Shown here piece after piece: positions 27,868 through 31,909 of a stretch of DNA of 64,000 nt; within the stretch, counting starts at the first letter, position 1, and every line of letters starts with the position of its first letter. The stretch is from an uncultured Sulfolobales archaeon (lineage in GTDB: Archaea > Thermoproteota > Thermoprotei_A > Sulfolobales > Acidilobaceae). The DNA is taken from NCBI GenBank assembly GCA_937921695.1, contig CAKZTZ010000022.1, forward strand, positions 1 through 64,000, in the 5' to 3' direction. The position numbers and the translations under genes were made by a program. Under the pieces are notes generated by a model. It was not told the origin of the DNA, did no database searches, and saw only the letters and a program-made list of their open reading frames with translations.

Positions 27868-28001
27868 ATCAAACCACCAACAGCAGGCTCCAGATAGGAG
27901 GTTTATGGAAGCATAACCTTAAATATTAAGCTTAAACATTTTAATCCCCACGCTTTAGAAAAGCCCCCCTCCCGAAACCCCAGCATGAACACCCCTAGGG
28001 G

Positions 28002-28090
28002 CCGGGGTATCCCACCATGAATTTCCAGAGGGTTGAGTTAAGCTAAATCTACCCAAACACATTGACCCATAGGACCGGGGTATCCCACCA
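28002..28090. repeat. Pair of 16-bp direct repeats
   Basis: CCGGGGTATCCCACCA occurs at 28002-28017 and again at 28075-28090, identical and 73 bases apart (start to start). The unit contains GGGGTATCCC, a near-palindrome, and could be a protein site or part of a duplicated RNA. Confidence 0.75.
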
Positions 28091-28706: not shown

Positions 28707-29109
28707 GGGAAAGCTAGAGATACCTAGAACTGTATAGGTAGTAGAAGCTCTGGATTTCCTGGAGGGTTTCGGGGTATGAGGTTGATGGGCCTGCGTGACG
28801 GTCTCGGAACACTCTAGGCCGGGGTTCCATGTCTCTACGGTGGGTTTGAAGACACCTAATACCATCCTGGAGACATTGGAAGCAAACACCCAGCCCCCTA
28901 GGGGGAGACTGACGCACTACTACCTTTAGGCCAGTCTCTAAGGAGGGCTTTCAGAATTTTATACAACCTTGTGAAAACGAAACCTAGGCAGGGGAGGGCC
29001 ACCCTGATGAGGCTCATAGGCTTTCCTTTTTCAGCCTCTAACTAACCCCTGTCTAGAGTTAAACCCCCCTTACTTTTAAGTTATATTATGTCAAAACTAT
29101 TTGGGATTT

Positions 29110-29288
29110 GGGTCTCATAGCGGCTGATATCAGCCTGAGACCCTTAGGTCTCAACAGCTCCTCCCCCCCTCCCGGGTTCCCCGGGGGCTGTCATAGCTCT
29201 TCCCCCCTTCGCGTTAACCCCACCCTATGAGGGGTCACTTTTCACCACACTATGGGTTGTGCTCGGCTCCCGGGAAACCCGCTCATCT
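29110..29288 (-). ncRNA. Structured RNA-like element, copy A
   Basis: A non-coding element read on the minus strand, related to copy B at 31337-31493. Shared segments are, in the same order: GATG-GCGGGTTTC, CATAGTGTGG, GGTTAACG, CTGTTGAG, AAGGGTCTCAGGCTGATATCA and CTATGAGACC. A long-range helix joins 29269-29280 (GGGTTTCCCGGG) with 29174-29185 (CCCGGGGAACCC), 12 bp with one G-U pair; copy B forms the matching helix with different bases. The 3' end folds as GGGTCTCA/TGAGACCC around the palindrome GGCTGATATCAGCC. A TATA-like sequence lies at 29294-29302. Covarying helices suggest a functional RNA; family unknown. It points away from guaA. Confidence 0.55.
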
Positions 29289-29398
29289 ACAGCTAATATA
29301 TAGCCGCCCCTCTCTCGGGCTTCCTCTACTTTTGGAATGGCGGGCGCTCTAGCGTAACGATATTTAGGCTCCACCCAGATATTGTTTCATGGAGAGCT

Positions 29399-30925
29399 GT
29401 GGTGGATTACATTCTTGTGATAGACTTTGGAGGCCAATATGCCCACCTAATAATGCGCAGGATCAGAGAGTTAAATGTTTACAGCGAGATTGTTAGCGCC
29501 TACGCTAGCCTTGAGGAGCTTAAAGAGCTTATGAGGGGCTCTCGAGGCGTCATACTAAGCGGGGGCCCTGGTAGCGTGTGGGAGCAGCATCACGACTACA
29601 TTGTGGAGATGGCTTTGAAGGAGGATAAACACCTCCTAGGGATATGTTATGGGCACCAGCTAATAGCTAAAGTCCTAGGGGGGGTTGTAGGTAAAGCTCC
29701 TAAACCCGAGTTTGGCCCCACCCTTGTAACTATAAAGGCTAAAGACCCCCTCTTCACCGGGATCCCTAAATTCATCTCCGTGTGGATGAGCCATAATGAT
29801 TCTGTTCTAGAGCCTCCTAAAGGAGCTCTTCTGCTAGCTTCCAGCAATAATAGCCCGGTAGCAGCTTTCAAGTTTGGAAGTAGGGTTTACGGTGTCCAGT
29901 GGCATCCTGAGGTTGCACACACAATGTATGGGATAGAGCTTTTAAACAACTGGCTTAGAATAGTTGGAACTCCTAGAAACTGGCTCCCCGAGGTTATGGT
30001 TGAAAATCTCGTGTCTAAAGTGAGGGAGGCTGTTAAGGAGTCTAAAGCTGTGGCCGCTGTGAGTGGAGGTGTAGACTCTACAGTAGCGGCGTTAATAGCG
30101 CGTGAGGCTTTAGGTTCTAGGTTGCACCCGGTAATCATAGATCACGGGCTTCACCCTGAAGGGGAGCCTTGGAGGTCTATTGAGCTACTTAGAAAGATAG
30201 GCTTGGAGGTTGAGCTTATAGATGCTAGCGATAGGTTCTATGAGGCTCTTAGAGGCGTTAGGGACCCTGAGGGTAAGAGGAGGGTTTTCGGAGCTGTCTA
30301 CGCTAAGGTGCTTGAAGATTATGCTGAGAGGGTGGAGGCAGAGTATTTAGTCCAGGGAACAATATATCCCGATGTTATAGAGAGTGGCGCGAGACCGGGG
30401 GCCAGCATAATTAAGACCCACCATAATGTTGCAGGGCTACCCTCAACTTTCAAGCTGAAGCTAGTGGAGCCCCTCAAATGGTTTTATAAAGATGAGGTTA
30501 GGAGGATAGCTAGGAAGCTCAAGGTGCCGGAGGAGATTATAAAGAGACAGCCCATACCCGGGCCCTCCCTAGCTGTGAGGGTTGAAGGTGAAGTTACAAG
30601 GGAGAAGATAGGGATAGTGAGGAAAGCAGACACTATACTCAGGGAGGAGGTTGAAAAAGAGGGACTCCAAGACAGGCTATGGCAATACTTCACAGTACTC
30701 CTAGAATCTAAAGCCACCGGAGTTAAAGGCGATGAGAGAGTGTACGGCCACGTAATAGCTGTTAGAGCTGTTATAAGCGTTGACGCCATGACAGCCTCTA
30801 TAGCTAGGCTACCATGGGAGGTGTTAGAAACCATAGCTTCAAGAATAACGAGCGAGGTGCCCGGCGTCGTAAGAGTAGTATATGACTTGACTAGCAAGCC
30901 CCCAGCTACTATAGAGTGGGAGTAG
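29399..30925 (+). CDS. guaA: GMP synthase (glutamine-hydrolysing)
   Basis: A 508-residue two-domain enzyme that converts XMP to GMP. The N-terminal glutamine amidotransferase has the triad C83 (GICYGHQ), H169 and E171 (QWHPEV). The ATP-pyrophosphatase domain starts with the P-loop SGGVDST at 222-228 and ends with the dimerisation domain (TSKPPATIEWE). Unlike many euryarchaea, both parts are in one chain. GTG start; a second GTG is the next codon. It converges on a zinc-ribbon gene with one base between stops, and structured elements lie on each side. Confidence 0.96.
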   Translation: MVDYILVIDFGGQYAHLIMRRIRELNVYSEIVSAYASLEELKELMRGSRGVILSGGPGSVWEQHHDYIVEMALKEDKHLLGICYGHQLIAKVLGGVVGKAPKPEFGPTLVTIKAKDPLFTGIPKFISVWMSHNDSVLEPPKGALLLASSNNSPVAAFKFGSRVYGVQWHPEVAHTMYGIELLNNWLRIVGTPRNWLPEVMVENLVSKVREAVKESKAVAAVSGGVDSTVAALIAREALGSRLHPVIIDHGLHPEGEPWRSIELLRKIGLEVELIDASDRFYEALRGVRDPEGKRRVFGAVYAKVLEDYAERVEAEYLVQGTIYPDVIESGARPGASIIKTHHNVAGLPSTFKLKLVEPLKWFYKDEVRRIARKLKVPEEIIKRQPIPGPSLAVRVEGEVTREKIGIVRKADTILREEVEKEGLQDRLWQYFTVLLESKATGVKGDERVYGHVIAVRAVISVDAMTASIARLPWEVLETIASRITSEVPGVVRVVYDLTSKPPATIEWE

Positions 30926-30926
30926 G

Positions 30927-31220
30927 TTAAATCCTCTCCCTCATAATATCCTCTATATCCAACTCTATGACCTGAGGCTCTCCAGCCTCCAGGGGCTCGC
31001 CCGGGCTCTCCTCCCCCCCACTTTTAATCCTCTTCATTGGAGCGTTCCACCTATGGCCGCACTCTCCGCATATAAATGAGCCCATAATCGTAACCGTAAC
31101 CCTACCCTGCCTATCAGGAATCGGGGACACCATAGTCCATGTTCTCACAGGCTCTAGAACTTTAGAGCCGCATTTAGGGCATGTAAGATACCCCTCCCCT
31201 TTAGCTCCCTTCCTAGGCAT
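30927..31220 (-). CDS. Small zinc-ribbon protein
   Basis: A 97-residue protein with two CxxC knuckles, CPKCGS near residue 14 and CGECGH near residue 52, forming a TFIIS-like zinc ribbon. A basic N-terminus (MPRKGAKGEG) and an acidic C-terminal tail flank it. Such crenarchaeal proteins may bind nucleic acid or RNA polymerase; I cannot name the family. It lies convergent to guaA. Confidence 0.8.
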   Translation of the reverse strand: MPRKGAKGEGYLTCPKCGSKVLEPVRTWTMVSPIPDRQGRVTVTIMGSFICGECGHRWNAPMKRIKSGGEESPGEPLEAGEPQVIELDIEDIMRERI

Positions 31221-31336
31221 TCCAGACAGCCCTCACTGTTAAATGTTGCTTATCACATTTTTAAACCCTCAACCCCCCTAACACTCCAAGCCTTGCTCTG
31301 CTATAACCTTCATACTAGTTTATAAAGGTTGGTATA

Positions 31337-31493
31337 AGATGTGCGGGTTTCTCCAGGGGCTGAGCCCTACTCATAGTGTGGCGGCTAAAACTTCCTATGA
31401 TGGGGGGAGGAAGCCCCGGGAAGGGTTAACGTGTAAGGGGAGAAGCCTGTTGAGCCCCAAGGGTCTCAGGCTGATATCAACAACTATGAGACC
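31337..31493 (+). ncRNA. Structured RNA-like element, copy B
   Basis: The plus-strand counterpart of copy A. The 5' segment GGTTTCTCC (31346-31354) pairs with GGAGAAGCC (31439-31447), one G-U included and extendable with wobbles to 12 bp. This is the same long-range helix as in copy A, but with different base pairs. The 3' end contains GGTCTCA (31462-31468) and TGAGACC (31487-31493) enclosing GGCTGATATCA. A TTTATAAA box is at 31319-31326. The last ten bases overlap the 3' end of the opposing riboflavin kinase gene. Presence of promoter, conserved order and compensatory pairs support a transcribed RNA of unknown type. Confidence 0.55.
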
Positions 31494-31909
31494 TGAACAC
31501 TTATAACTTTAAACCTAACCCTATCTCCGTCTGACAGTCCGAGCGCGGACCTTATATGGGTGGGTGACAGGAGCTCGACAACGTCAGCCTTGTAAACTGT
31601 TATGACAGGCCTCACTATGTAAACCTCGACTTCAACTAGCCCGGCAACTTCAGCTTTATAAGCGTAGACGGAGCCTAGGCGGGCTCCGGGTATTATTGGG
31701 GGCTCTATTAAGATAGGTTTAACGCTATTAATACACTCTTTGTAAGCGTCAACATGGCTGCTGTTAAGTTTCAAGTTTAGGGTTCCAGGGTATGGTTTGA
31801 ACCCTAGTCTTTCGAGGAACTTCCTAGTATATATGCTTACGTAGAAAGCTCCTTCTCCGGTTCCGCTGAAAACAGTGCCCTCGAAATGGTTGTTGCACGG
31901 GCCCCCCAA
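31484..31909 (-). CDS. ribK: CTP-dependent riboflavin kinase
   Basis: A 141-residue archaeal riboflavin kinase (DUF120) that makes FMN from riboflavin with CTP. Diagnostic segments are GTVFSGTGEGAFYVS, LGFKPYPGTLNLKL and the C-terminal SALGLSDGDRVRF. It lacks the N-terminal winged helix found in the fused regulator RbkR, so it is the stand-alone enzyme. A TTG start is used and is not certain. Its stop lies inside the 3' hairpin of element B. Confidence 0.9.
   Translation of the reverse strand: MGGPCNNHFEGTVFSGTGEGAFYVSIYTRKFLERLGFKPYPGTLNLKLNSSHVDAYKECINSVKPILIEPPIIPGARLGSVYAYKAEVAGLVEVEVYIVRPVITVYKADVVELLSPTHIRSALGLSDGDRVRFKVISVQVS

Follow-up and report, generated by a model that had tools for sequence, protein, structure and literature searches.

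Introduction

In ISDra2, the reRNA is formed by the 3' end of tnpB together with the right end of the element, flanking host bases serving as guide (PMC8612924), and a pseudoknot connects its 5' region with the nucleotides immediately preceding the guide (PMC10097598). Such omegaRNAs of TnpB have been surveyed (PMC10278001), and SisTnpB1 of S. islandicus cuts DNA in vitro with its omegaRNA (PMC10640517). In Staphylothermus marinus, 14 IS607-related MITEs of ~260 nt were reported in 2009 as DNA repeats, without a guide-RNA component (PMC2678158). Both this kind of omegaRNA and IS607-related MITEs are already known; omegaRNA scaffolds carried by such miniatures in large numbers appear to be unreported in the open literature searched. 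Stand-alone omegaRNAs were reportedly described for IscB by Altae-Tran et al. in 2021.

The window analyzed here is a stretch of 64,000 nucleotides from an uncultured Sulfolobales archaeon. On either side of its guaA gene, a preliminary description had noticed two copies, A and B, of a structured-RNA-like element that it could not assign to any kind. Our analysis indicates that A and B are, with high probability, two of at least 14 to 17 copies of a non-autonomous miniature IS607-type transposon carrying an omegaRNA scaffold, most likely relics. The sequence first noticed can be assigned to a known kind, as it represents a miniaturized IS607/TnpB element with its omegaRNA scaffold and right end.

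Results and discussion

Extent and homology of copies A and B

Two models were used: a sequence-only profile of ten copies from the own genome, copy A among them (R1, run on 60 relatives), and a covariance model of 18 scaffolds from the relatives G049, G005, G046, and G047, which contains no own-genome sequence (R2). The features of the two copies are the following:

~29103-29353, minus strand: copy A, miniature IS607-type element (from the own-genome copy alignment, omegaRNA part by R2), comprising a worn left end, a remnant of the zinc-finger codons, the omegaRNA scaffold, and the right end
29103..29289, minus strand: omegaRNA (reRNA) scaffold of copy A, full length of the model
29122..29135, minus strand: subterminal hairpin of copy A, GGCTGATATCAGCC, read from the sequence
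29083..29102, minus strand: where the guide of copy A is predicted to lie, in host DNA immediately past the right end, by analogy with the reRNA (PMC8612924)
~31290-31501, plus strand: copy B, miniature IS607-type element (from the copy alignment and R2)
within ~31319-31333, plus strand: left-end TATA-like box of copy B, TTTATAA (sequence AGTTTATAAAGG), read from the sequence
31336..31501, plus strand: omegaRNA scaffold of copy B (R2 30.6 bits, E = 1.3e-7; R1 87.7 bits)
31484..31501: stretch shared by the copy B right end and the 3' terminus of gene 31484-31909 (minus strand), from the ORF list and sequence
31502..31521, plus strand: predicted guide position of copy B, by the same analogy (PMC8612924)

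Alignment, blastn, R1, and R2 all showed that A and B are homologous, with conserved blocks in the same order over the span first described. That span is the core, and the full element is longer: when the copies are aligned with their flanks, a left part (consensus GCCGGAGCTCTGCTGTAGCGGTTTTCATAAAAGTTTATAAGGG) and then a GC-rich stretch lie 5' of the start originally given, so that the left end precedes it. A check by covariance model had been proposed, and the reciprocal R2, built from relatives, recovers both copies over model positions 1-188, copy A with 39.9 bits (E = 2.5e-10; 75 kb searched), which is the strongest single result. R1 gives copy A 136.6 bits, copy A itself being part of that profile. 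In a scan of the window with R2, A and B were the only significant matches, all else reaching at most 8.1 bits.

The two copies are worn to different degrees. The subterminal hairpin of copy A is a shorter version of the right-end hairpin found in the relatives, which has 10-12 bp, and the hairpin of copy B is degenerate; in copy B, the omegaRNA almost abuts the left end, the zinc-finger remnant being gone. The stop and last codons of the opposite-strand gene 31484-31909 come from the right end of copy B. Copy A folds better than its shuffles (z = -2.6), and copy B does not (z = -1.05).

A TATA-like box had been placed just before the 5' end of each copy. This holds for copy B, whose left-end TTTATAA lies where most own-genome copies, as well as the left ends of complete IS607 elements, have conserved the box. 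Copy A has lost the box, its TATATATTA just 5' of the core being at a non-homologous position. A further TATA-like sequence, GATATTTAGG, lies at ~29359-29368, on the outer edge of the recognizable copy A, where it may be a promoter box of guaA.

A long-range helix, made from different bases in A and B, had been taken as covariation, and this did not stand. The 3' arm in copy A, CCCGGGGAACCC, falls within a segment deleted from B, and the 3' arm in copy B, GGAGAAGCC, aligns to GGAGGAGCU of A; therefore, the two helices are not homologous. Across 12 copies, pairing at this helix was no better than chance, with 78.3% of cells paired versus 79.2% in shuffles and 1 double change.

Copies in the own genome

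The expectation of further copies was borne out by profile and covariance model searches, both in the own genome and in crenarchaeal relatives. In the own genome (1.39 Mb), the profile search returned at least 14 clear copies, with 17 places at E<1e-4, and blastn returned 16 matches (best non-self E = 2e-37); R2 recovers most of these other copies besides A and B. The copies, ~190-360 bp as excised for alignment, are intergenic, occur in both orientations, and have unrelated neighbors. A cis-regulatory leader was considered and rejected, as neither downstream gene nor orientation is common to the copies. The full 10-bp right-end hairpin is present in 2 own copies, L015 and L018 (GGCTGATATC-ACCA-GGTATCAGCC and GGCTGGTATC-TTGC-GATACTAGCT), the hairpin being shortened to a palindrome in most others.

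Two of the own copies, L017 (C7:51854-52102) and L014 (C20:29142-29420), each have a second, weaker copy on the opposite strand, near or overlapping, with the right ends of the pair facing each other (R1 E = 0.0027 for the weaker copy at L017, 1.7e-6 at L014).

The own genome, whose assembly is 86.6% complete so that the genes could sit in the missing part, yielded no tnpB of matching type and no tnpA or resolvase. Two matches to PF07282 were set aside: a weak zinc-ribbon at C25:38713-38802 (L106), near short frames like a worn TnpB of another type and, as a fragment, without a Pfam match, and one on C26 inside a 376-aa gene unlike tnpB. Considering that matching tnpA and tnpB were not found in this genome and that ten own copies have diverged to a mean pairwise identity of 67%, relic status is most likely for A and B. 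Direct comparison gave no empty site, the guaA of the same genus being only 65-74% identical and having a different upstream neighbor.

Association with tnpA and tnpB in relatives

Against the 60 relatives, blastn found no match outside the own genome, the family being detected by profile and covariance models alone. R1 matches of near full model length were present in other families of the order, 15 of them in G049 alone, and in G043, G046, G047, G049, and G053 they sit at the 3' end of the tnpB zinc-ribbon codons. Just upstream, in-frame TnpB zinc-ribbon codons read CPRCG...CPRCG...RQ...N, then MWGFPH... (G043, G046, G047, G053, and one copy in G049); PF07282 places lie directly 5' of the R1 matches in 5 of 5 genomes, and Pfam confirms the proteins. 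In G046, a serine recombinase (PF12728+PF00239, the HTH-resolvase type of IS607 transposase) is followed by a PF07282 tnpB; G014 carries a complete tnpA-tnpB-omegaRNA unit as in G046, with the scaffold again at the tnpB 3' end, and in G053 a shortened resolvase frame adjoins tnpB. The tnpB frame of G049 has 446 codons and, judged by eye, appears to keep the three RuvC acidic positions.

These arrangements can be set beside the described systems. As in the IS607 family (PMC6188088), the autonomous relatives carry a MerR/HTH-resolvase TnpA and then TnpB, and the C/G-rich termini (left GCC, right CCCC) are compatible with a GG-dinucleotide exchange; unlike that family, A and B lack both genes. 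Like the TnpB omegaRNA/reRNA, the scaffolds of the relatives are located at the tnpB 3' end and right end, with a hairpin near the 3' end and a boundary followed by host DNA, whereas no tnpB adjoins A and B. In G049, 14 copies are near-identical in the end GAACCCC and unrelated beyond it. Conservation of the scaffold thus stops at the element boundary, which would put host DNA in the guide position.

Rfam had no match for A and B at gathering thresholds and, at E<=1, nothing for two other own copies and six loci of relatives. The element is indeed, as first described, repeated, of structured-RNA type, and not a tRNA, SRP RNA, or RNase P RNA. Being intergenic, with TATA-like boxes and no Rfam match, it had been read as a multi-copy structured RNA of the host, of unassigned function and with no tie to a transposon. 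This reading is now highly improbable, considering that several genera have the same sequence as the 3' end of tnpB and that its upstream part consists of a remnant of the tnpB zinc finger and the left end of an IS607 element.

At one locus of a same-genus genome (G005:C62:18133-18547), an omegaRNA directly follows a truncated IS607 tnpA, with no space for tnpB. This locus is another deletion stage.

Layout of the miniature elements

The left end of the miniatures aligns with the sequence upstream of tnpA in the complete element of G046 (scores 22.5-29.5 versus shuffled maxima of 12.5-14.5), and the sequence just 5' of tnpA in G014 likewise aligns with the left ends of own and G049 miniatures. 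The GC-rich stretch corresponds to the zinc-finger codons of tnpB. At these codons, tnpB genes have a hairpin of CCTGCCC/GGGCAGG type, of which several of the G049 miniatures keep a CCCGCCC/GGGCGGG version and one own copy a ACCGCCCC/GGGGCGGT version, most own copies having lost it; tested singly, these hairpins were above shuffles only in tnpB genes and one miniature. As the left end is shared with tnpA-tnpB-omegaRNA elements, A and B are tnpA/tnpB-less, MITE-like derivatives: they are short, gene-less, and multi-copy, and have left and right ends in common with an autonomous element. The miniatures are thus elements with a deletion running from the left end to the tail of tnpB.

The divergence of the copies and the truncation of some of them (L013, L017) would also fit full-length IS607 elements that decayed separately in place, with no amplification of a miniature. 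We consider this improbable, because the own copies have one common left-end/remnant junction, which is not in the intact tnpB copy of G049, and because copies far outnumber tnpB.

RNA structure and covariation

RNAalifold gave no convincing consensus for ten own copies (covariation term +0.05), and an all-column helix scan of the own copies gave weak signals, similar on both strands; therefore, the search was extended to other genomes. Results showed that, in the R2 alignment of 18 scaffolds, three helices have real covariation, with 91.5% of cells paired and 9 pairs doubly changed, a level that 0 of 500 shuffles reached, slid controls being less than 45% paired. The 12-bp subterminal hairpin of the relatives has 6 doubly changed pairs. 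Among 12 own copies, covariation in the right-end helices was not above shuffles, and RNA activity in the own genome accordingly finds no support. The compensatory changes anticipated from aligning more copies are thus present for the omegaRNA helices of relatives and do not exceed shuffles among the own copies. A pseudoknot comparable to that of ISDra2 is possible: in most copies, GGGUUUC could form a helix with a GAAACCC or AAACCC close to the end, at shuffle level in the own genome.

Distribution across the order

At E<=1e-4, R2 matched in 63 of the 197 genomes of the order, spread over 27 of its 74 genera. In a sample of 40 omegaRNA places from at least 13 genera, tnpB was upstream in 13 and missing in 27, 3 of these being cut by contig ends and 24 being long enough to call the absence; the 40 places were hand-picked and skewed to high-copy genomes, and the proportion is not an unbiased rate. 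Five presumed Sulfolobaceae places (L218-L221, L225) have the scaffold at the tnpB end. In the presumed S. marinus genome, the R2 match falls in a tnpB-less element of the MITE kind, and the MITEs described there (PMC2678158) resemble the family of A and B in size, copy number, and relation to IS607. An exact-pattern scan of genome contigs returned a single match, bacterial and judged to be chance.

An imbalance between scaffolds and nuclease genes is seen in G049, where 51 R2 matches stand beside one intact full-length tnpB of matching type. This number, together with the significant covariation in relatives and a promoter box kept in most copies, would be expected if the miniatures were domesticated or active stand-alone omegaRNAs, guiding TnpB in trans and protecting insertions or targeting other DNA. 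As an account of the miniatures it is nevertheless unlikely, since the own genome has no matching tnpB and its copies show no excess covariation, several being truncated. In a genome such as G049, with structure kept and one intact tnpB, stand-alone scaffolds may possibly act in trans. Like the stand-alone omegaRNAs of IscB, A and B are guide scaffolds with no adjoining nuclease gene; unlike them, they are of TnpB/IS607 type, archaeal, and placed on a recognizable miniature transposon.

Proposed origin and spread

Returning to A and B as likely relic miniatures of an IS607-type transposon, an internal deletion of the element would have kept the promoter-bearing left end, in most cases a zinc-finger remnant, and the omegaRNA with the right end. 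The copy number and the common junction suggest that the miniatures most likely spread through tnpA, the serine recombinase, working on their ends in trans. Where a matching TnpB exists, that is, in related genomes, the left-end promoter could drive an omegaRNA whose 3' end would read into the flank as guide, and a TnpB with such a guide could cut copies of the site that lack the element. A bolder extension, of fairly low probability, is that throughout the order IS607 miniatures lacking tnpB, present by the dozen in each genome, have a promoter and working scaffold; a single TnpB would then receive many site-specific guides in trans, and each guide would defend the insertion it comes from and promote the spread of a non-autonomous element.

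These results remove an apparent orphan RNA class and provide, with R2, a model for the TnpB guide-RNA family in the order. Many scaffolds on tnpB-less miniatures make it testable whether non-autonomous transposons are kept or spread by TnpB in trans, and they raise the question of whether stray scaffolds could be a source for the evolution of separate guide RNAs.

Elsewhere in the window, two 19-nt near-identical direct repeats, GGNCCGGGGTATCCCACCA, lie in an intergenic region at 27999-28017 and 28072-28090, 73 bases apart, where chance would predict none.
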